From Fusobacteriaceae bacterium (lineage in GTDB: Bacteria; Fusobacteriota; Fusobacteriia; Fusobacteriales; Fusobacteriaceae), in assembly GCA_017984315.1 (NCBI GenBank), contig JAGNZR010000007.1, forward strand, positions 1 through 52,929: a stretch of DNA of 52,929 nucleotides, given 5' to 3'. Positions 758 through 38,657 of this stretch are shown piece by piece (the first letter of the stretch is position 1; each line of letters starts with the position of its first letter). The position numbers and the translations under genes are program-made. Under the pieces are notes generated by a model. The model was not told the origin of the DNA. It ran no database searches and was given only the letters and a program-made list of their open reading frames with translations.

Positions 758-2215
758 ATGTTAAACGGAAAAATTATAAAGAAAGCAATAACTTTTGATG
801 ATGTACTACTTGTTCCAGCTCACTCTGCTGTGCTACCTTATGAAGTTGATTTAAAAACTAAACTTACTAAAAATATAACTCTAAATATACCTATTATCAG
901 TGCTGCTATGGATACTGTAACAGAGAGCGATCTAGCTATAGCTCTTGCTAGACAAGGTGGAATCGGGTTTATCCATAAAAATATGAGCATTGCTGAACAG
1001 GCTGCAGAGATTGATAGAGTAAAAAGATCTGAAAGCGGGATGATTAAAAACCCTGTTACTCTACTTAAAGAATCTACTGTTATTGAAGCTAACGATATAA
1101 TGAGAAGATATAAAATATCTGGACTTCCTGTTATTGAAGAGGGGGGAAAGCTTATTGGAATAGTTACAAACAGAGATCTGAAATATAGAAAAGAGTCTGA
1201 TGAATCTATAGAAGAGATTATGACGAAAGACAATATTATAACTGCTCCTATAGGTACAACACTTGAAGAGGCTAAAGAGATTCTACTTTATAACCGTATT
1301 GAAAAACTTCCAATTGTTGATGATCATGGGTATTTAAAAGGGCTTATCACTATTAAAGATATAGATAATCTTGTTGAGTACCCTAATGCCTGCAAAGATT
1401 CTCAAGGTAGATTGAGAGTTGGAGGAGCAATAGGAATAGATAAAGATTACCTACAAAGAGTTAAAGCACTTGTAAATGCCGGAGTAGATATCATAACTGT
1501 GGATTCTGCCCATGGACATTCAAAAGGTATTTTAGAAGCTATTAAAAAAATTCGTGAAAAGTACCCTACTTTAGATATTATCGGTGGAAATATTGTAACT
1601 GCTCAAGCGGCTATAGACCTTATCTCTGCTGGAGTTAACGCTGTTAAAGTTGGAATAGGTCCTGGATCTATCTGCACAACAAGGGTTATTGCAGGGGTAG
1701 GAGTGCCACAATTAACTGCTGTTAATGATGTTTATGAAATATGTAAAGAGCTTGGAATCGGAGTTATTGCAGATGGTGGTATTAAATTCTCTGGAGATAT
1801 TGTAAAAGCTATTGTTGCTGGTGCTGACTGTGTTATGCTTGGTGGGCTTTTAGCTGGAACAACTGAAGCTCCAGGTGAGGAAATTATATATGAAGGTAGA
1901 AGATATAAAGTTTATGTAGGTATGGGGTCTTTAGCTGCTATGAAAAGAGGTTCTAAAGACAGATATTTCCAAAAAGATGAGCAAAAACTTGTTCCTGAAG
2001 GGATAGAGGGTAGAGTTGCATTTAAAGGGGATATAAAAGATGTTGTATTCCAATTATGTGGTGGAATCCGTTCTGGTATGGGGTATTGCGGAACTCCAAC
2101 TATCCAAAATTTAAAAGAGGATGCTAAATTTGTTAAAATAACTGGTGCAGGTTTAAAAGAGAGTCACCCACATGATATTATTATAACGAAAGAGGCTCCT
2201 AACTATTCAAAATAA
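758..2215 (+). CDS. guaB: Inosine-5'-monophosphate dehydrogenase
   Basis: Converts IMP to XMP with NAD+, the committed step of guanine nucleotide synthesis, in the cytosol. The 485-residue length is normal for the bacterial enzyme. The TIM-barrel starts with [10 protein letters not shown]; two CBS domains are inserted at about residues 93-205; the catalytic loop GPGSICTTR carries the active cysteine at residue 306; the flap region near residue 400 has the conserved GRVAFKG segment. The start ATG is preceded by AAAGGAGATG at good spacing. It lies 40 bp after purD in the same direction and may be co-transcribed with it. No terminator is obvious in the 128 bp after it. Confidence 0.98.
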
Positions 2216-2273
2216 TTCTGTATTAAAAATAATTAAAAATAACTAAAAAAGTATACTCGAATCTATAATAAAA

Positions 2274-2282
2274 TGCTATAAT
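2274..2282 (+). promoter_or_regulatory. Extended -10 promoter for the binding-protein gene
   Basis: TGCTATAAT matches an extended -10 element (TGnTATAAT) 62 bp before the lipoprotein start. No good -35 hexamer is seen 17 bp upstream (TACTCG). The site is inferred from sequence only. Confidence 0.45.
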
Positions 2283-2343
2283 GGCCTCACTAATTTATTT
2301 ATAATAGTTATTATTCAGCTATTTTTAAGGAGGGGGAGTCATT

Positions 2344-3078
2344 TTGAAAAAAATTATCAGTTTAATAATTATTCTTTTTTCAATTTTTATAGGGTGTGAA
2401 AAAGATTCTAAAATTGAAGAGGTAAAAAATTCTTATATTATTGGAATTGATGATGCTGACTATCCCTTTGAGTATAGAGACCCTATTACAGGAAAACTTA
2501 CAGGGTTTGAGTATGAACTTATCTCTGAAATAGCAAAAGAAGGGGATTTTGAAATAAAGATAGTTATTATCCCTTTTGCTAATTTGATTCCAGAGTTGGC
2601 TAAAAATACAATTGATATTGGTATTGGGCATTTTTCAATAACAGATGAGAGAAAAAAATTAGTTAATTTTAGTAACTCTTATTTAAGCTCAAATGAAGTT
2701 GTTTTAGCAAATAAAAATAATACTTCCACAAATGAGGATGCACCTATTTATGCAGAGCCTCCTGGAACTACGTTTTTAGATTATGCAAAAAAAATACCTA
2801 ATGCAAAAATAGTTGAAGAGGTAAAATATGATAAAATCATTGAAAAACTACTTCAAAAAGAGATTGACTATACTATAATAGATGAGCCTACAGCTACTGT
2901 ATATTCATCTATGCACTCTGAGCTTTATATAAAAGAAAATATTCAAAGAACATATATTGGTCTGGCTCTTTCAAAAAAATTAAGCAAAGAGGATACTAAA
3001 AAAATCAACAAGATTATTGATAAATTTATAGAAGATGGAACAATCGACAAATTAAAAGAAAAATATAATATAAGATAA
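2344..3078 (+). CDS. Amino-acid-type ABC transporter substrate-binding lipoprotein
   Basis: A 244-residue periplasmic binding protein of the SBP_bac_3 family, which captures polar amino acids for an ABC importer. The N-terminus is a lipoprotein signal (MKKIISLIIILFSIFIGC) with the lipidated cysteine at residue 18. The mature part begins with the family's early motif (DDADYPFEYRD, then TGFEYEL) and contains the usual DIGIGHFSITDERKK segment. The start is TTG, supported by the strong upstream GGAGGGGG. No permease or ATPase gene lies beside it, so it is an orphan or works with a transporter encoded elsewhere. The ligand cannot be told. A hairpin terminator follows directly. Confidence 0.88.
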   Translation: MKKIISLIIILFSIFIGCEKDSKIEEVKNSYIIGIDDADYPFEYRDPITGKLTGFEYELISEIAKEGDFEIKIVIIPFANLIPELAKNTIDIGIGHFSITDERKKLVNFSNSYLSSNEVVLANKNNTSTNEDAPIYAEPPGTTFLDYAKKIPNAKIVEEVKYDKIIEKLLQKEIDYTIIDEPTATVYSSMHSELYIKENIQRTYIGLALSKKLSKEDTKKINKIIDKFIEDGTIDKLKEKYNIR

Positions 3079-3099
3079 GATATAATGCCTTGATAAATT

Positions 3100-3142
3100 A
3101 AAGGGATTTTGTAGAAAAATAAACTATAAAATCCCTTTTTTA
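3100..3142 (+). terminator. Rho-independent terminator
   Basis: A 15-bp stem (AAAGGGATTTTGTAG with CTATAAAATCCCTTT, one G-U pair), a 9-nt loop and a run of Ts. It closes the binding-protein transcript. A nearly identical copy closes the oadB transcript at 11620-11663. Confidence 0.9.
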
Positions 3143-3186
3143 CTTATTTGAAAAGTATATATTAATATTATCATATAAAAATAAAT

Positions 3187-9654: not shown

Positions 9655-9993
9655 ATGAATAGCATGTTTGGAAAGTATCTTTCCCTATTAGATTCATTGT
9701 TAGTAACAGCAATTTGCATGGGAATCGTATTTTTGGTACTAATTATTATTGCTTATATACTATCATTATTTGAGCATATTCCAAAAAATTTAAGCAACAC
9801 CCATACAAAAAATATAGGTCAAGAAACTATAAATAATGCAGTAAAAAAATCTAATGATGCAATAGAAACAACGCTTAATCCAGAAAAAATAACTGATGAA
9901 AATATGGTTATAGCAATGTTAGTTGCTTCAATGGAAGCTGCAGAAGAAAATGATGGAGCTTATATAAAAATTAGAAATATAAAAGAGATATAA
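9655..9993 (+). CDS. oadG: Oxaloacetate decarboxylase gamma-type small membrane subunit
   Basis: A 112-residue protein with one hydrophobic helix at about residues 13-37 and a polar tail ending in VASMEAAEEN...YIKIRNIKEI. It has the size, topology and position of the OadG/MmdD subunit, which assembles the decarboxylase and joins the alpha subunit to the membrane pump. Sequence conservation in this family is low, so the call rests mainly on position between oadA and the biotin carrier. AAAAGGAG precedes the ATG. Confidence 0.82.
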   Translation: MNSMFGKYLSLLDSLLVTAICMGIVFLVLIIIAYILSLFEHIPKNLSNTHTKNIGQETINNAVKKSNDAIETTLNPEKITDENMVIAMLVASMEAAEENDGAYIKIRNIKEI

Positions 9994-22128: not shown

Positions 22129-22160
22129 ATAGGGATTACAAGAAATAACCCCTATTTTTA
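22129..22160 (-). terminator. Hairpin between ftcD and fchA
   Basis: AAAATAGGG pairs with CCCTATTTT (one bulged G on the longer arm) around a roughly 14-nt loop. T-rich stretches flank both sides. It could be a weak internal terminator or an mRNA-stability hairpin in the hut operon. Confidence 0.55.
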
Positions 22161-22212
22161 TTTTTGTATATATACATATAATTAGAAATTATTTTTTAAT
22201 TTCCTTTTAATT

Positions 22213-23110: not shown

Positions 23111-25132
23111 TTATTTTCCTCCTGTTAATCTCTTAATTAAATTTTCATCTGCTTGGTAAGGTAAAGTTATATGATCTGTACCTGAATTATTTTTATTAAA
23201 TTCAATAACTGTATCTATAGAGTTTTTGTTTCTAGCCCAAGCTCTTCTTGCAACTCCTCCCATAACATCCCAAGGCATTGCAGTTCTAAGGATCTCATCA
23301 ACTCTTAAACTTCCGTCAAGAACCATTCCAAATCCACCGTTTATAGATTTTCCAATTCCAACTCCTCCACCGTTATGAAGAGCTATCATAGTCATCCCTC
23401 TTGCAGCGTTTCCAGCGAAACAGTGAGTAGCCATCTCTGCCATGATATTTGATCCATCTTTAATATTTGATGTCTCTCTAAATGGAGAATCAGTTCCAGA
23501 AACATCATGGTGGTCTCTTCCTAGCATAACTGGTCCAATTTCACCTTTTCTAACCATATCATTAAATTTAAGTGCAATGTTTGTTCTACTCATAGCATCT
23601 TGATAGAATATTCTCGCTTGAGTTCCAACAACTAATCCATTTTTATCTGCATCTTTTATCCACATATAGTTGTCTCTATCTTGGTATCTTCTTGTAGGGT
23701 CAACTAAGTCTAGAGCAGCTTTATCTGTTTTTAATAGATCCTCTTTCTTTCCACTTAAACAAACCCATCTAAATGGTCCATATCCATAGTCAAATAGTTC
23801 AGGTCCTAAAATATCCTCAACATATGAAGGGAATATAAATCCACCTTTATCATCTACACCGTTTTTAGCAATCTCTTTAATACCGATATCATAGATAGCT
23901 TTTAAGAAACTGTTTCCATAGTCAAAGAAATAAACTCCTCTATCAGATAATTTCTTAACTACTCTGTAATGCTTCTCTAAAGTCATATCAACTAATTTAT
24001 TGAATTTAGGTCTATCTTCAGCTAAAAGTCTAGTTCTCTCTTCAAAAGTTATCCCTACAGGGCAGTATCCACCGTCATAAACAGCATGACAAGATGTTTG
24101 GTCTGATAATAGATCTATTCTTTTGTTGTTAGCTTCAGCATACTCAAGTAAATCTACTGTATTTCCGTGGAAAGCTATAGCGTATGCAGTTTCAGATGCC
24201 ATTTTCTCTTCAGCAATTGCAAATGCCTCTTCAGGAGTTTTAGCTATTTTATTAACCCACCCTTGCTCTAATCTTGTGTGAATTCTTGATAAATCAACTT
24301 CAGATATGATAGAAACTCCGTTAGCTATTACAGCAGCTTTACCTTGAGCTCCAGACATCCCTCCAAGACCAGAAGTTACAAATAATTTTCCTCTTAAATC
24401 TCCATCTTTAGGAACTCCACAGAAAAGTCTAGCAGCGTTTAATATAGTAGAGTAAGTACCGTGAACTATCCCTTGTGGTCCGATGTACATCCATCCTCCA
24501 GCAGTCATTTGTCCATAGTTTGCAACACCGATTGCTGCTCCTCTTGCCCAATCATCATAGTTATCAAATGCCCCAATCATAAGACCATTTGTGATGATTA
24601 CTCTTGGTGCAGATGGGTGAGACTTGAAAAGTCCAACTGGGTGTCCAGATGATACTGCTAAAGTTTGCTCTTGAGTCATAACTTCTAAATATTTTTTAAT
24701 TAAGATATACTGCATCCAGTTTTGACAAACTTGCCCTGTCTCTCCATATGTTACTAACTCATAAGGGTATAAAGCAATTGCGAAATCTAGGTTATTATCA
24801 ATCATAACTTGAACAGCTTGAGCTTCAGTAATACCTTTATACTCATGTACAGGTTTTCCTACAATATTTCCAGCTGGTCTAAATCTATATCCATAAATTC
24901 TACCGTGAGTCATTAACTCTTCATAGAACTCTTTTCCTAACTCTTCATGAAACTCTTCAGGTATATATCTTAAAGCATTTTTTAAAGCTAACTCTATATC
25001 AGATTGGCTTAATTTTACAACTCTTTTAGGTGCTCTTCTAATTTTTGGATCGAATTCCAGGGGTTTTTGAGGAATATCCTCAGCAGTTAATTTTATATCC
25101 ATTGCATCAAAAACAAATTTATTGATCTCCAT
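23111..25132 (-). CDS. hutU: Urocanate hydratase
   Basis: Adds water to urocanate to give imidazolone propionate, using tightly bound NAD+ as an electrophile. The 673-residue length fits the longer type of urocanase. Conserved stretches include SSGHPVGLFKSHPSAPRVI, GVANYGQMTAGGWMYIGPQG, the NAD site VTSGLGGMSGAQGKA, LLSDQTSCHAVYDGGYCPVG and HNGGGVGIGKSINGGFGMV. GGAGGATAATT precedes the ATG. The histidine ammonia-lyase gene (hutH), which would make urocanate, is not in this window. Confidence 0.97.
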   Translation of the reverse strand: MEINKFVFDAMDIKLTAEDIPQKPLEFDPKIRRAPKRVVKLSQSDIELALKNALRYIPEEFHEELGKEFYEELMTHGRIYGYRFRPAGNIVGKPVHEYKGITEAQAVQVMIDNNLDFAIALYPYELVTYGETGQVCQNWMQYILIKKYLEVMTQEQTLAVSSGHPVGLFKSHPSAPRVIITNGLMIGAFDNYDDWARGAAIGVANYGQMTAGGWMYIGPQGIVHGTYSTILNAARLFCGVPKDGDLRGKLFVTSGLGGMSGAQGKAAVIANGVSIISEVDLSRIHTRLEQGWVNKIAKTPEEAFAIAEEKMASETAYAIAFHGNTVDLLEYAEANNKRIDLLSDQTSCHAVYDGGYCPVGITFEERTRLLAEDRPKFNKLVDMTLEKHYRVVKKLSDRGVYFFDYGNSFLKAIYDIGIKEIAKNGVDDKGGFIFPSYVEDILGPELFDYGYGPFRWVCLSGKKEDLLKTDKAALDLVDPTRRYQDRDNYMWIKDADKNGLVVGTQARIFYQDAMSRTNIALKFNDMVRKGEIGPVMLGRDHHDVSGTDSPFRETSNIKDGSNIMAEMATHCFAGNAARGMTMIALHNGGGVGIGKSINGGFGMVLDGSLRVDEILRTAMPWDVMGGVARRAWARNKNSIDTVIEFNKNNSGTDHITLPYQADENLIKRLTGGK

Positions 25133-28495: not shown

Positions 28496-28531
28496 ATTTT
28501 TTTTATTTTTGGTTATATACATATTTTTTTT

Positions 28532-31547: not shown

Positions 31548-31757
31548 TTATTTAAGAGGATCATTTCCACCTGGATGAAAAGGGTGACATTTAAGAATTC
31601 TTTTTATGCCTAAAAAAATCCCTTTTAAAACACCATATTTTTCAATAGCTTCATATGTATATTGTGAACAAGTAGGATAAAATCTACATTTTTTTCCAAA
31701 AAATTTTGAAATAAACTTTTGGTATATTTTTATTAAAATTAAACAAAATTTTTTCAT
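31548..31757 (-). CDS. yidD: Membrane protein insertion efficiency factor YidD
   Basis: A 69-residue protein with the whole family signature: [26 protein letters not shown] and [20 protein letters not shown]. It supports YidC-dependent insertion. Its ATG overlaps the rnpA stop by four bases (ATGA). A 190-bp gap to yidC follows on this strand and holds AT-rich sequence with a hairpin, CCTAAGGA...TCCTTAGG, around 31480-31514, that can act as a terminator or spacer. Confidence 0.95.
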
Positions 31758-32098
31758 TTTACTATACTAGCTCTTTTAAAAATTTTATTTAAATCTTTTT
31801 CTATATCTTTATATTTTAAAGTTTTTATATTTTCTCCAGCTTTTTTCTTAGCTACACAAACAATATCAAAACCTTTTTCAAATTTTAAATTATTAAGCCT
31901 AAAATACTCTCTAATTAGTCTTCTTATTCTATTCCGACAAACAGCATTTCCAGTTTTTTTACTAGTAACAGCTCCTAAATGAATTTCATCATCCTTATTT
32001 TCTTCAAAAAAAATAAGAGTATAATAACCAAATTCTTTTTTTCCTTTATTATAAATTAATTGAAAATCTCTGTTTTTTTTTATTTTTTCAATTTTCAT
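31754..32098 (-). CDS. rnpA: Ribonuclease P protein component
   Basis: The 114-residue protein subunit of RNase P, which trims 5' ends of tRNA precursors together with the RNA subunit. Motifs [13 protein letters not shown], the [22 protein letters not shown] with the RNR signature, and DIVCVAKK are visible. An upstream in-frame start at 32152 lies inside the rpmH terminator hairpin; the ATG at 32098 has AGGAGC upstream and gives the usual length. No own promoter is evident, so it may depend on read-through past the rpmH terminator. Confidence 0.97.
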
Positions 32099-32130
32099 AA
32101 AGCTCCTAACACTGTTATTAAAATTTTTAA

Positions 32131-32160
32131 AAAAACCCGGTGAATTATGCACCGGGTTTT
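32131..32160 (-). terminator. Terminator/attenuator of rpmH
   Basis: AAAACCCGGTG and CACCGGGTTTT form an 11-bp stem with a 7-nt loop; seven Ts follow on the minus strand. The rpmH stop codon touches the right end of the stem (32159-32161). Confidence 0.92.
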
Positions 32161-32293
32161 ATGCTGATAAAACTGCTCTTCCTCTGTCTCTTCTTCTTTT
32201 TAAAACCTTTCTTCCGTTTTTAGTTTTCATTCTAGATCTAAATCCGTGGTCTTTTTTTCTCTTTTTGTTGTTAGGTTGGAATGTTCTTTTCAT
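32159..32293 (-). CDS. rpmH: 50S ribosomal protein L34
   Basis: A 44-residue, very basic protein: it starts [19 protein letters not shown] and ends [12 protein letters not shown], as in all bacterial L34 proteins. AGGAGGTGA stands before the ATG and a near-consensus promoter is 43 bp upstream. It is the first gene of the minus-strand block leading away from the origin-like region. Confidence 0.97.
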
Positions 32294-32335
32294 TGTTACT
32301 TCACCTCCTAAAATATTCCTGTATTTCAGATTAGT

Positions 32336-32364: not shown

Positions 32365-32519
32365 TATTTTTTTACTAATTACTTATTCTAAAAAAAATAA
32401 CAACAAATTTCATTTTAGTATGTTTATGTAATAATGTTTAATGTAGAGAGCAAAGTTTTATAATCTATGAATAAAAACTTAATTATAACAAGGGAAAAAT
32501 CAAATAAAAAAAAATGAAA

Positions 32520-32538
32520 TTATTATTATATATATACA
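32520..32538 (+). repeat. 19-bp direct repeat, copy 1
   Basis: TTATTATTATATATATACA, identical to 32932-32950, 412 bp apart. Low sequence complexity lowers the weight of the match. Confidence 0.6.
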
Positions 32539-32647
32539 AATAAAAAAACTACTCTCTTTGCTAAGTTTTTAGAGTTAAAACTAAATAATGATAAATTTTT
32601 TATGTAGATTTTTCAATAAAAAAAGAAGGAAAGGAGAATATTTGAAA

Positions 32648-32671
32648 TATTATTGCTTATATACAAATAAT
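32648..32671 (+). repeat. 15-bp direct repeat with dyad, copy 1
   Basis: TATTATTGCTTATAT (32648-32662), followed by AATAATA, which is complementary to the TATTATT at its start. The same arrangement is repeated at 32897-32920. Confidence 0.65.
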
Positions 32672-32874
32672 AAACCCTTTATTTTTCTACAAAATTTTTT
32701 AATGAGATTTTAGTATACAAAAAAAATGTAAGAGTTTATTGAGAAAAATTAAAAAAACTAAAAATATAAATTATTTTTGATGGTATACATTAAAAAAATC
32801 ACTCTTTTTTATAATAAAATTAAAATATAAATTAATAAACACAGTATTAAAAATTATTAAGGAGAGAGAATAAT

Positions 32875-32913
32875 ATGAAAAATACATTAAAAAAATTATT
32901 ATTGCTTATATGA
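32875..32913 (+). CDS. Short leader ORF upstream of the RepA-like gene
   Basis: A 12-codon ORF, MKNTLKKLLLLI, ending in TGA 68 bp before the RepA-like gene. It has a convincing ribosome-binding site (AAGGAG at 32859-32864, about ten bases upstream). Four leucine codons in a row (TTA TTA TTG CTT) overlap the 15-bp repeat/dyad. It could be a leader peptide that senses translation, a small membrane peptide, or a chance ORF. No attenuator with a T-run is visible after it. Confidence 0.4.
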   Translation: MKNTLKKLLLLI

Positions 32914-32920
32914 ATAATAA
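32897..32920 (+). repeat. 15-bp direct repeat with dyad, copy 2
   Basis: TATTATTGCTTATAT followed by GAATAATAA; arms TATTATT and AATAATA can form a hairpin. It overlaps the end of the short leader ORF. Confidence 0.65.
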
Positions 32921-32931
32921 TATAGTATAAT

Positions 32932-32950
32932 TTATTATTATATATATACA
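32932..32950 (+). repeat. 19-bp direct repeat, copy 2
   Basis: TTATTATTATATATATACA, identical to 32520-32538, 31 bp before the RepA-like start. It lies just after a TATAAT (32926-32931), a possible -10 for that gene. Confidence 0.6.
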
Positions 32951-32980
32951 TATTTAAAATTAATATTTTAGGGGAGTTTT

Positions 32981-34912
32981 ATGGGTGCAAAAATAAAAAA
33001 AGAAGAGGAAATTAAAGTTGAAAATGATGAAATTATTGTTTTAGAAGACAATGATATTGAAGATGAAAAATTATTAGAAGCAGATGTTGATTCTTTTAAT
33101 ATTTCTACTTCAGGAGCACTTAGCAGTGATATAAAAAAAATGGAAATCAAATTAAATGAAGTTCCTGATATTGAAGTTAGAGAAGTTATAATAAAAAAAA
33201 CAGGGAATTTTTTAAATTTAAAAGATAATATTATTAATATACCTATAGAGATGTTGATATTTCCTTTTTTTACTCCTCAAAAACAGAATAAAAGAATAAA
33301 TTTCCAATATACTTTTGAAGATATGGGAGTTAGCATGCATTGTACTTTGATTGCAAAAAATTCTGCTGACAAAGTTTTTCAACCTTCAATATTTGAAGAA
33401 AAAATTTATACATATTTAATATCTATGTATGAAGGAAAAAAAGATGCTGATGATGATAATGAGTATATAGATTTTGAAATTAATGATTTTATTGTTAATT
33501 TTATTGGGAATAAAATGAATAGAACTTATTATACAAAAGTTGAGCAAGCTCTTAAAAATTTAAAAAATACAGAGTACCAATTTGTTGTTTCTAATCATAC
33601 AAAATTAGGACAATACAAATTCGAAGATGAAGAGTTTAAGCTTTTAACTTACCAAAAATTAAAAATTGGAAAAAAAATATATTATAGAGTAACACTGAAT
33701 AAAAATATTAGAAAAAAAATAAAAGATAAAAGATATATAAAATATAACTCTAAAACTTTAGTTGAGATGATGAATATAGATCCTATAGCTGCAAGGATAT
33801 ATAAATATATAAGTCAGATGAGATATGATAAGAACAGCAACATCATAAATATAAGGACTTTAGCAGCTATCATCCCATTAAAAACAGAGCAAATAACAGA
33901 AAGAGTAAGTAAAAATGGAGAAGTTAAAAACTATGTTTTATGTAGGTTGAAACAAGTTTTAGGAAGGATAGAGAAAGCTTATGAGATCTTAATGGATTTA
34001 AAATATATAAAATCATATGAATCAACTTATAATTCTAAAGAAAATACATACTATATAAAATACTTCTTTAATGCTGAGAAAGATGGAACTTGCCATATTT
34101 CTGAGTATATAATGAAAAATGCACTAAAAAATAAAGCTAATTTAATTGAAGCTAAAGAGAGTTCTAAAAGTGCCAGTTTTGAATCTAAAAAAGATGAAGA
34201 GGTTCATGTAATTGAAAAAACAAACAGTAAGCCTAAAGCAAGCAAAAAAGTTCCACAATTTGAATTCCCTGATACTGTTGTAGAAAAAATAAAAAAAGTT
34301 AAAAGAAATAGATTTGTTAATAAAGCATGGGATAAAAGAGCTGAAAATAAAATTCAAACAACTTTTATAAGATATGGAGAGGAGTTTACTTTAAAACTAT
34401 TAAATGAAGTTTATAAAAGTTTAAATAGCCAGATTACACTGTCCTTAGTTCAATATTTAAATGGTGTAATTAATAATATGTTGTCAGAAAATAAACCTAC
34501 TGTTGTTAAGAAAAAAGAGGAAAACTTAACTCTTTTTGGAAATTTTGGTTCAACATCTGAAGCGTCAAATCTTAATAAATTAACTAAAACAGGGATAAAA
34601 AGGGCTGCTAAAACATTTGTAAATACAGGGATAGCAATGACACCGATAAAAAAAGATGAAGAGATAAAAACTTTAAAAGATTTTATTACTGAGGATATAC
34701 ATGAAAAGAAAGCAGGTGTCTTTGGTGCTAAATATGATGATTTAGATGAATACGAAAAATTAAAAATAGAGGACAGAGCTATAAAATTATGTTGTAGTGA
34801 AACTAATATGCCGGAAAAAACATTGTTAATAGTAAAACAAAAATTAAAACCAGCATATGAAAACACCATAAAAAAGTACATTGAAAGACTTTTAAATGAA
34901 GATTCATTTTAA
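32981..34912 (+). CDS. RepA-like (RPA-family) replication initiator at the dnaA locus
   Basis: A 643-residue protein that replaces dnaA-dnaN in the usual rpmH/dnaA-dnaN-yaaA-recF-gyrBA order. Layout: acidic N-terminus (1-60); a core of about 85-360 that begins MLIFPFFTPQKQNKRINFQY and contains FEEKIYTYLIS, MNRTYYTKVEQALKNLKNT and MNIDPIAARIYKYIS (267-281), the pattern of winged-helix plasmid initiators of the replication initiator protein A/TrfA kind; a lysine-rich linker; and helical C-terminal parts (about 415-515 and 580-643). There is no Walker A or B motif, so it is not DnaA. GGGGAG precedes the ATG. Its role in chromosomal replication is inferred from fold resemblance and position only. 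Confidence 0.72.
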   Translation: MGAKIKKEEEIKVENDEIIVLEDNDIEDEKLLEADVDSFNISTSGALSSDIKKMEIKLNEVPDIEVREVIIKKTGNFLNLKDNIINIPIEMLIFPFFTPQKQNKRINFQYTFEDMGVSMHCTLIAKNSADKVFQPSIFEEKIYTYLISMYEGKKDADDDNEYIDFEINDFIVNFIGNKMNRTYYTKVEQALKNLKNTEYQFVVSNHTKLGQYKFEDEEFKLLTYQKLKIGKKIYYRVTLNKNIRKKIKDKRYIKYNSKTLVEMMNIDPIAARIYKYISQMRYDKNSNIINIRTLAAIIPLKTEQITERVSKNGEVKNYVLCRLKQVLGRIEKAYEILMDLKYIKSYESTYNSKENTYYIKYFFNAEKDGTCHISEYIMKNALKNKANLIEAKESSKSASFESKKDEEVHVIEKTNSKPKASKKVPQFEFPDTVVEKIKKVKRNRFVNKAWDKRAENKIQTTFIRYGEEFTLKLLNEVYKSLNSQITLSLVQYLNGVINNMLSENKPTVVKKKEENLTLFGNFGSTSEASNLNKLTKTGIKRAAKTFVNTGIAMTPIKKDEEIKTLKDFITEDIHEKKAGVFGAKYDDLDEYEKLKIEDRAIKLCCSETNMPEKTLLIVKQKLKPAYENTIKKYIERLLNEDSF

Positions 34913-35340: not shown

Positions 35341-36429
35341 TTGGAGTTAAAGATAGTAAACTTTATAAATTTTAGAAATTTAGAAGATTATAGTCTTAAT
35401 ATTCCAGATGGAATTACTCTTTTTCACGGGAAAAACGGACAAGGAAAAACAAGTGTTTTAGAAGCTATCTATTTTGCAGCAACAGGTAAAAGCTTTAGAA
35501 CAGCAAAAATTCAAGAGTTAATTAAATACAATAAAGAGAAGTGTGGAGTTTTTCTTTTGTATAAAGATAAAATAGATGAAAAAACCATATCTATAAAATT
35601 TTCAGACAAGAAAAAGGAGTTTAGCTATAACGGAAAAAGGATAACATATGATGACTACTACGGAAAATTAAATGTAGTCTCTTTTATTCCAGAAGATATA
35701 GAGTTAATAACAGGAGCTCCTAGCATAAGAAGAAAATTTTTTGATGAAGAGATCTCTCAAGGTGATGAAGAGTATTTTAAAAATATAAAAGATTACTCTA
35801 AGATTCTAAAAATAAGGAACCACTATTTGAAATCAGGAGTTTATAAAGGTGATATTTATGAAGTTTATGAAGAGGAGTTTATAAAACTTGCTGCAAAAAT
35901 CATAAAAAAAAGGTTAAATTATATAAAAAATATAGGGATAATTCTTAATTTAAATTATAGAAAAATTTTCGATAATAAAAAAGAGTTAGGGATTAAATAT
36001 GTTTCAGAAATAGGTTATGATAAAAAAGATACACTAAATTCTATAGAGGAAAAAATAAGAGATAGTTTGAAAGAGAGAGCCTTTCAGGAAAAAAAATATG
36101 GCTATACTCTTGTAGGTCCTCAAAAAGATGAATTTAGATTTTACTTAAACGATAAAGATGCTAAAAGTTACTCTTCCCAAGGGGAGAAAAAATCAATCGT
36201 TTTTGCACTAAAACTTTCTGAGATAGATATGATATTTAAAGAAAAAAAGGAGAAACCTATATTCATAATAGATGATATCTCCTCTTATTTTGATGAGAGC
36301 AGAAAACAGAGTATATTAACTTTTTTAAAAGGCAGAGGGGTTCAGCTTTTAATAAGCTCAACAACTGAGATAAAAATAGATTGTAAGGTTCTTAAAGTTG
36401 AAAATGGTGTTGTGTATGATAGAGATTAA
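35341..36429 (+). CDS. recF: DNA replication/repair ATPase RecF
   Basis: A 362-residue SMC-like ATPase that helps load RecA at single-strand gaps. Walker A HGKNGQGKTSVLEAIYFAATG at about 30-50, the ABC-type signature YSSQGEKKSIVFALKLSE near 290, and Walker B FIIDDISSYFDESR near 315 are visible. The start is TTG, supported by GGAGGGGG. Its end overlaps the following DUF721 gene. Confidence 0.97.
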   Translation: MELKIVNFINFRNLEDYSLNIPDGITLFHGKNGQGKTSVLEAIYFAATGKSFRTAKIQELIKYNKEKCGVFLLYKDKIDEKTISIKFSDKKKEFSYNGKRITYDDYYGKLNVVSFIPEDIELITGAPSIRRKFFDEEISQGDEEYFKNIKDYSKILKIRNHYLKSGVYKGDIYEVYEEEFIKLAAKIIKKRLNYIKNIGIILNLNYRKIFDNKKELGIKYVSEIGYDKKDTLNSIEEKIRDSLKERAFQEKKYGYTLVGPQKDEFRFYLNDKDAKSYSSQGEKKSIVFALKLSEIDMIFKEKKEKPIFIIDDISSYFDESRKQSILTFLKGRGVQLLISSTTEIKIDCKVLKVENGVVYDRD

Positions 36430-36706
36430 AAATACTTGTGATATTATAGATGAAGCTTTAAAAAAGAGCAAAAAATTAAGAGAAGTATATTTAAAAGCAA
36501 GATGGAGTGAAGTTATAGGGGATTCTTTGGATAAAAGATGTTTTCCTTTAAAAATAGTTGTGGGTTGCCTTTATATAATTGCAGATACAAGTTCTGTAGC
36601 TAATTATTTGAAATTATCTCAAGATAACATCATTTTTAAAATTAATAATATTTTTAAAAGTGAAGTTGTAAAAGATATAAAAATAAAAATAGGTACATAT
36701 AAATAG
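36416..36706 (+). CDS. DUF721 protein, DciA-like helicase loader
   Basis: A 96-residue protein of the DUF721 family: WSEVIGDSLDKRCFPLKI and GCLYIIADTSSVANYLKL follow the family pattern (W..vvG..l.....P..l..g.L.v.v.ss..a..L). DciA proteins of this family help load the replicative helicase in bacteria without DnaC/DnaI. The start is uncertain: ATG 36416, ATG 36404 or TTG 36398 are possible, all inside the recF end, and no clear ribosome-binding site is seen, so translation is probably coupled to recF. Its position between recF and gyrB is common. Confidence 0.8.
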   Translation: MIEIKNTCDIIDEALKKSKKLREVYLKARWSEVIGDSLDKRCFPLKIVVGCLYIIADTSSVANYLKLSQDNIIFKINNIFKSEVVKDIKIKIGTYK

Positions 36707-36734: not shown

Positions 36735-38657
36735 ATGGATAATTATCAAGCGGAAAATATAACGGTATTAGAAGGTTTAGAAGCTGTAAGAAAAAGACCA
36801 GGGATGTATATTGGAACAACATCTGAAAGAGGGCTGCACCATTTAGTATGGGAGATAGTAGATAACGCTGTAGATGAGGCATTAGCTGGTTATTGTGATA
36901 AGATAACTGTTTCTATACTACCGGATAACATTATAGAAGTATCAGATAACGGAAGAGGTATTCCTACAGGGATTCATCCAAAATATGGAAAATCAGCATT
37001 AGAGATAGTTTTAACTGTACTTCATGCTGGTGGAAAATTTGAAAATAATAACTATAAAGTTTCAGGAGGACTTCATGGTGTTGGGGTTTCAGTTGTTAAC
37101 GCCCTTTCTACATGGTTAGAAGTTATTGTAAATAGAGATGGAAAAGTATGGTATCAAAAATATGAAAGAGGGATCCCTCAAGAGGATGTAAAGGTTATAG
37201 GTGATGTTGCTGATGGTACAACAGGGACTACAGTAAGATTTAAGCCAGATGGTGATATTTTTGAGACTTTAGTTTATGACTTTGGAACTCTTCAGACAAG
37301 ATTAAAAGAGTTAGCTTATTTAAATAAAGGGCTGACTATTAATATAAAAGATATAAGAAAAGAGGATAAAGAGAAACATAAAGATGAGACACTGAAATTT
37401 GATGGTGGTATTGTAGATTTTTTGAATGATGTAGTGGGAACAGAGACTTTAAGAATAGTTAAAGATCCTATCTTCATGTCAGGGGAACAGGATGGAGTGA
37501 TAGTTGAGATCTCTATGCTGTATACAGTTAATCAATCTGAAATTATTTATTCTTTTGTAAATAACATCAATACACATGAGGGTGGTACTCATGTAAGTGG
37601 TTATAGAACGGCTTTAACTAGAATAATGAATGATGTTGCAAAAGATCAAGGTCTAATAAAAGATAAAGATGGAAAGCTCCAGGGTTCTGACGTAAGAGAG
37701 GGTATTGTAGCTATAGTTTCTTTAAAAATACCGGAGCCTCAATTTGAAGGTCAGACTAAAACTAAATTAGGTAACTCAGAAGTTACAGGGATAGTCTCTT
37801 CTGTTGTTGGTGCACACTTAAAGATGTATCTAGAAGATGCCCCAGCTATAACAAGAGGGATAGTTGAAAAGATATTGAACTCAAAAAAAGCAAGGGAAGC
37901 AGCTCAAAGAGCAAGAGAGTTAGTTCTTAGAAAATCAGCATTAGATATAGGATCATTACCTGGTAAATTAGCAGACTGCTCATCTAAAAATGCAGCAGAG
38001 TGCGAAGTATATATAGTTGAGGGAGATTCAGCAGGTGGATCTGCAAAACAGGGTAGAGATAGAGCTTTCCAGGCGATACTGCCACTTAGAGGAAAAATTA
38101 TAAATGTGGAGAAATCTGGTCTTCACAAAGCCTTAGAAAATAATGAGATAAGATCCCTTATAACAGCTTTTGGAACAGGGATTGGAGACAATTTTAATAT
38201 AGAAAAATTGAGATACGGTAAAATAATAATAATGACAGATGCCGATGTTGATGGAGCACATATAAGAACTCTTATACTGACATTTTTTTATAGATACATG
38301 GTAGATCTTATACAGAGTGGAAATGTATTTATTGCCCAACCGCCGCTTTATAAAGTATCAGCTGGAAAAACAGTTATTTATGCATACAGCGATAAGCAGA
38401 TGAAAGATATTGCTGTAAATTTAGAAGCAGAAGGGAAAAAATATACTCTTCAAAGATATAAAGGATTAGGAGAGATGAATCCAGAGCAATTATGGAGTAC
38501 TACAATGAATCCTGATTCAAGAACATTATTAAGAGTAACAATAGATGATGCAAGAGCTGCTGATATGCTTTTTGATAAACTGATGGGAGATAGAGTTGAA
38601 CCTAGAAAAGAGTTTATAGAAGAGCATGCAGAGTATGTAAAAAATCTAGATATTTAA
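36735..38657 (+). CDS. gyrB: DNA gyrase subunit B
   Basis: ATPase subunit of gyrase, which puts negative supercoils into DNA. The 640-residue protein has the GHKL ATP site ([37 protein letters not shown]), the [11 protein letters not shown] region of the transducer domain, and the TOPRIM domain with [18 protein letters not shown] and [11 protein letters not shown]. It ends with the short GyrB tail ([13 protein letters not shown]...). The insertion found in proteobacterial GyrB is absent. TTGGAGGAAT precedes the ATG. Confidence 0.99.

Follow-up and report, generated by a model that had tools for sequence, protein, structure and literature searches.

A plasmid-type initiator has probably replaced DnaA at the main chromosomal origin of Fusobacteriaceae

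The locus and the question it raises

Free-living bacteria are regarded as having DnaA almost without exception. As of 2020, no free-living dnaA-less species had been reported outside the cyanobacteria (PMC7198777). The window analysed here, i.e., a 52,929-nucleotide stretch of contig JAGNZR010000007.1 (assembly GCA_017984315.1, Fusobacteriaceae bacterium), carries in the place of dnaA a gene for a 643 aa plasmid-type, RPA/PF10134-like initiator (rep, 32981..34912, + strand). Between rpmH and rep lie 616 bp of ~16 % GC (32365..32980, no strand assigned), which on account of a skew sign change and conserved iterons are regarded as a candidate oriC region. By which initiator is replication started at this locus, and of which replicon is it the origin? 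An earlier note, prepared from the DNA letters alone, had proposed a candidate origin of the iteron type, lacking DnaA boxes and with the adjacent RepA-like protein as the possible binder of its repeats. Comparative evidence from related genomes supports this proposal, and the iteron type of the origin may be retained; what the note had not seen are the status as main chromosomal origin, the loss of dnaA, the long period of the 18-mer array and the presence of a separate heptad element.

Gene order and GC skew

The general gene order in DnaA-bearing Fusobacteriota is mnmE-jag-yidC-rnpA-rpmH, followed by dnaA-recF-dciA-gyrB-gyrA. Fusobacteriaceae share this order, with rep in the dnaA slot. In the window, the left border of the origin is formed by rnpA (31754..32152, - strand) and the adjoining rpmH (about 32163-32294, - strand). 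On the other side, rep is accompanied by (i) recF (35341..36429, + strand), a conserved neighbour of dnaA in relatives and of rep in Fusobacteriaceae, (ii) dciA (36398..36706, + strand; PF05258, 3.4e-14), the product of which is likely a DnaB helicase loader, and (iii) gyrB (36735..38657, + strand), also a conserved neighbour.

The GC skew of the window changes sign at this locus. In case of two complete relatives sampled round the chromosome, the skew flips at rep, within a few kb, and in one of these two the opposite change is located about half-way round. Since a single sharp skew flip indicates one fixed origin at rpmH-rep, this locus is, as judged from skew, the main chromosomal origin.

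Absence of DnaA

A search of 61 Fusobacteriaceae genomes, of which 47 have a completeness of 90 % or more and a contamination of no more than 5 %, did not detect the C-terminal domain of DnaA (PF08299) in any, contrasting its presence in 36 of 37 other Fusobacteriota. The window genome is only 78 % complete, and the absence of dnaA therefore rests on the relatives, several of which are complete isolate genomes. Matches to Bac_DnaA (PF00308) in Fusobacteriaceae were weak throughout and restricted to short proteins of ~150-300 aa, which are probably IstB/DnaC-like. In addition, no similarity to DnaA was detected for Rep (encoded at 32981) by BLAST or profile, and a hidden DnaA was rejected on these grounds.

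A search for the exact DnaA box TTATNCACA confirmed that there is none in 32365-32980, as the earlier note had stated from inspection by eye. Across the whole window, TTATNCACA occurs five times (2.9 expected), with the sites nearest to the region at 23656 and 45840. Of the features of a DnaA-oriC, the locus thus shows neither, there being no dnaA in the 61 Fusobacteriaceae genomes and no cluster of TTATNCACA in the region.

Affiliation and distribution of Rep

Compared with the Pfam family RPA (PF10134), the Rep of the window scored 25.3 bits (1.4e-5), just below the 27-bit cut-off, and several chromosomal orthologues scored above this cut-off (up to 37.9 bits). The family model matched 13 of 17 aligned Rep members (best 1.4e-7). 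These profile matches place Rep in RPA, a family of plasmid initiators. A homologue is encoded in 59 of 61 Fusobacteriaceae genomes; the two genomes without a match are 93 % and 70 % complete, respectively.

The structural models of Rep are of low confidence (mean pLDDT 54 and 63). Their top fold match, for the full as well as the core model, is to domains 2-3 of RctB (E values 3e-6 and 5e-4), followed by Rep-type initiators, namely a Rep WH1 domain and RepE (5.9e-3), the latter ranking second for the core model. A search of the Rep profile against PDB sequences yielded chance matches only and did not retrieve RctB.

Related rep genes reside on plasmids pILYOP01 and pILYOP02 of Ilyobacter and pHIC of Haliovirga, with parA adjoining two of the three; all three are annotated as hypothetical proteins. 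Besides the plasmid rep, Haliovirga possesses dnaA in its usual place on the chromosome. The direct repeats upstream of the rep genes of pILYOP02, pILYOP01 and pHIC (TTCTCCGCAAGTGTGATG; TATAATTNNNAAGGATGATAA; TTCTAAAATNNNNRTANNG) all differ from each other and, as read by eye, none matches the chromosomal consensus TATTATTGNNNATATACA described below, i.e., the iteron changes with its cognate Rep.

In the phylogenetic tree, a branch supported at 100/99 sets the chromosomal Reps apart; the tree has long branches, and the exact placement of the plasmid Reps is unsure. The simplest history would be a single takeover of the dnaA slot, in the family's ancestor, with vertical inheritance thereafter. 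A phage source of Rep was also considered and discarded, as no relatives were found in viral contigs or phage records. One relative (G009, C6:11921-13737) contains a degenerate rep-like copy with many stop codons, a few kb from an intact copy of rep.

An array of co-oriented 18-bp iterons

The candidate region harbours five copies of an asymmetric 18-bp iteron (consensus TATTATTGNNNATATACA), all on the + strand: iteron 1 (32521..32538, TATTATTATATATATACA, 1 mismatch), iteron 2 (32648..32665, TATTATTGCTTATATACA, exact match), iteron 3 (32772..32789, TATTTTTGATGGTATACA, 2 mismatches, on the 124-125 bp period), iteron 4 (32897..32914, TATTATTGCTTATATGAA, 2 mismatches, containing the candidate -35 hexamer of rep) and iteron 5 (32933..32950, again TATTATTATATATATACA, 1 mismatch). 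Their starts are spaced by 127, 124, 125 and 36 bp, whereas iterons usually follow each other at about two helical turns, a trait that is typical, not strictly defining. At up to 2 mismatches, the five matches compare with a mean of 0.04 in 1000 dinucleotide shuffles of 32365-32980, none of which reached five. In the whole window, 13 matches were found versus 0.9 expected.

The exact pairs listed in the earlier note were all recovered, i.e., the 19-bp repeat TTATTATTATATATATACA at 32520/32932, the 15-bp repeat TATTATTGCTTATAT at 32648/32897 and 13-bp repeats at 32531/32658 and 32761/32822; a further 15-bp pair at 32785/32882 was missing from it. Their excess over composition-matched shuffles likewise held, a 19-bp exact repeat appearing in 3 of 1000 and the array of five in none. 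Two distinct repeat families, as which the note had taken the 19-bp and 15-bp pairs, are ruled out, since both pairs align as the single 18-mer and represent four of its copies, with the fifth at 32772. Nor are the repeats placed symmetrically towards the two halves of the region, because they share a single orientation and the uneven spacings given above. The proposed dyad TATTATT...AATAATA does occur at each of the two 15-bp copies. Its lack of conservation in relatives rules out a palindromic binding site.

Conservation of the iterons in Fusobacteriaceae

The repeats are conserved in relatives, with position and orientation kept across Fusobacteriaceae. In nearly every genome of the family examined, the rpmH-rep interval contains 3-8 co-oriented iterons, often ~105 bp apart, and the arrays of the relatives span 400-700 bp. 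Of 34 intergenic regions examined on Fusobacteriaceae chromosomes, which are mostly, not all, the rpmH-rep interval, nearly all have this array; motifs of the TATTATTGNNNATATACA type were found in them 170 times in forward versus 2 times in reverse orientation. The exact motif occurs in 35 of 37 Fusobacteriaceae genomes versus none of 24 AT-rich relatives from other families; the reversed control pattern yielded 3 matches in those same 61 genomes. Column frequencies of 165 iterons from relatives display near-invariant T-A-T-T....T and ..T-A-T-A-C-A blocks with a variable centre between them, the sites having been picked by allowing no more than 2 mismatches from the consensus, a choice that itself favours near-invariant columns.

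The commonest spacing in relatives is 104-106 bp, from which the ~125 bp of the window differs. Period analysis of all iteron distances revealed peaks near 94, 105, 117 and 126 bp, suggesting helical steps. A Rayleigh scan of the distances did not single out 10.5 bp, and a claim is therefore made only for the distance of 70 or 80 bp between the heptad element (see below) and the iterons.

Two variations of the array were observed among the relatives. In case of G016 (2063-3144), it is apparently doubled, the stretch upstream of rep containing two sets of four boxes that resemble each other and lie ~680 bp apart. In origins of the Cetobacterium type, the iterons are interspersed with CCTTGATTTTATT / AAAATCAAGG repeats, which may form hairpins and which the window does not have.

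The TGT-heptad element and the candidate rep promoter

Upstream of the first iteron, the window contains a conserved T-rich element composed of TGTNNNN heptads (TAGTATGTTTATGTAATAATGTTTAATGTAGAGAGCAAAG, 32416..32455, + strand), a candidate DNA-unwinding or single-strand-binding element. In about 30 Fusobacteriaceae chromosomes, the heptad run (e.g., TTGTTTTTTGTATAATGTTATATGTACAGAC) precedes the first iteron by 68-70 or 78-82 bp (80 in the window), these two distance classes being one helical turn apart. The element is also found upstream of the Haliovirga plasmid rep.

A candidate rep promoter (32902..32931, + strand) consists of a -35 hexamer TTGCTT within iteron 4, 18 nt and a -10 hexamer TATAAT. 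In most relatives, the TTG of the rep-nearest iteron is likewise followed, after 16-18 nt, by a TATAAT-like hexamer. A generic promoter scan of the region performed no better than with shuffles and did not call the promoter at 32902-32931; it is for its conservation only that the iteron-embedded promoter is kept as a candidate.

Dispersed Rep boxes

Outside the array, dispersed Rep boxes are situated on the + strand inside rep (34684..34701, TATTACTGAGGATATACA), just 3' of mnmE (28504..28521, TATTTTTGGTTATATACA), where some relatives have boxes nearby, in an intergenic position (22159..22176, TATTTTTGTATATATACA) and at 9744..9761 (motif match TATTATTGCTTATATACT). The genome of the window contains 17 boxes, seven of them on this contig. 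In five complete or near-complete genomes, non-array boxes are concentrated at distances of up to 50 kb from the origin (p 2e-8 to 3e-17). By analogy, the dispersed boxes resemble titration or regulatory sites, as known for DnaA.

Proposed initiation and alternative explanations

The reading preferred here, to which a probability of roughly 0.87 is assigned on comparative sequence evidence, is that a plasmid-type winged-helix Rep replaced DnaA in situ at the main chromosomal origin. Likely as well is its extension to the family, according to which all Fusobacteriaceae including Fusobacterium would start their primary chromosome without DnaA, a plasmid-derived initiator with RPA/RctB fold having displaced dnaA in the common ancestor. 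The resulting new layout would comprise co-oriented 18-bp iterons with a period of ~10-12 helical turns, an unwinding element of TGT heptads at fixed distance and origin-centred titrating boxes.

Rep would bind each iteron, and Reps bound ~105-125 bp apart may form a looped complex, the long spacing pointing to looping or bridging rather than to a contiguous filament. Such a complex could melt the heptad element and may hold one of its strands, as TrfA and RepE do, Rep proteins which can bind one strand of the DUE (PMC4081077). DciA, encoded two genes downstream of rep, would then load DnaB on the opened DNA. The location of the -35 hexamer inside an iteron suggests that Rep represses its own promoter. 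The boxes within 50 kb of the origin may titrate Rep, in which case the timing of initiation would follow the amount of Rep per origin, much like DnaA boxes do for DnaA.

Alternatively, the 18-mers could be operators only, for autoregulation of rep and for other genes, with replication starting independently of an initiator by recombination or R-loops, as might hold in dnaA-less cyanobacteria. Such cyanobacteria do exist as free-living organisms (PMC7198777), the rep-nearest iteron, as seen in relatives, carries the -35 of the candidate rep promoter, and boxes are scattered outside the origin as well. However, 3-8 copies over 400-700 bp together with heptads at fixed distance exceed the need of one operator, and the single sharp skew flip speaks for one fixed origin versus the multiple origins of dnaA-less cyanobacteria, which renders this explanation unlikely.

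Still less probable is a role of the boxes as centromere-like (parS-type) segregation sites instead of initiator sites. Clustering near the origin is typical of parS, but the motif is not a palindrome, being asymmetric, and reaches its highest density immediately upstream of rep, where the plasmid-borne rep paralogues have different repeats; moreover, some of these genomes possess canonical parS-like sequences elsewhere and none at this locus.

The plasmid-borne occurrence of the Rep family in Ilyobacter and Haliovirga would also agree with an integrated plasmid remnant beside rpmH and a normal DnaA origin elsewhere; with no DnaA in 61 genomes, a skew that pivots at the locus, and rep and its synteny conserved across Fusobacteriaceae, this is very improbable. 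Chance repeats in very AT-rich intergenic DNA, although shuffling alone can produce the 19-bp repeat, are hardly conceivable for a consensus that recurs family-wide in a single orientation and was not found in relatives beyond Fusobacteriaceae.

Relation to known replication systems

The proposed replacement of DnaA by Rep makes use of known parts: Rep, iterons and the AT-rich element are also those found in iteron plasmids and on chromosome 2 of Vibrio. With ori2/RctB of Vibrio cholerae chromosome 2, the Fusobacteriaceae origin shares a large initiator of plasmid descent (RctB 658 aa, Rep 643 aa), for Rep of putative winged-helix fold, as well as head-to-tail iterons, an AT-rich element and distant extra sites that may be bound by the initiator, and the best structural match of the Rep models, RctB domains 2-3, would fit this relation. 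In contrast, ori2 requires a DnaA box and drives a secondary chromosome of a DnaA-containing cell; its 12-mer iterons are separated by gaps of 10-11 bp, whereas those of Fusobacteriaceae are 18-mers ~105-125 bp apart, and RctB has no sequence match to Rep.

Well-studied iteron plasmids such as RK2 combine DnaA boxes with closely spaced iterons. The Fusobacteriaceae origin resembles those of RK2 (TrfA), F (RepE) and R6K (pi) in its Rep with putative tandem winged-helix domains, co-oriented iterons beside rep and an AT-rich repeated element on one side, but differs by the lack of DnaA boxes and the long iteron period. With the DnaA-oriC of Leptotrichiaceae and Haliovirgaceae it has the locus and neighbours in common, whereas dnaA is substituted by the unrelated rep and DnaA boxes are absent. 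The dnaA-less cyanobacteria are likewise free-living bacteria; they replicate from multiple origins (PMC7198777), contrasting the single sharp origin and substitute initiator of Fusobacteriaceae.

No paper was found describing Rep and iterons as the primary and sole recognisable system of chromosomal initiation, family-wide and without DnaA; literature coverage is incomplete and earlier notice possible. If true, the loss of DnaA from a whole family and the use of a plasmid-type initiator at its former locus would amount to integrative suppression fixed in nature, and would provide a system for asking about roles of DnaA beyond origin opening, once-per-cycle control by Rep and helicase loading by DciA without DnaA. 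Oral and gut species of Fusobacterium would then have an initiator unlike that of other bacteria, and there would be an explanation for a gene listed in annotations as hypothetical or weak DnaA. As a minor observation on annotation, a Fusobacterium vincentii record listed as plasmid (NZ_CP084075.1, 2.1 Mb) carries the chromosomal rep together with iterons and is probably a mislabelled chromosome.
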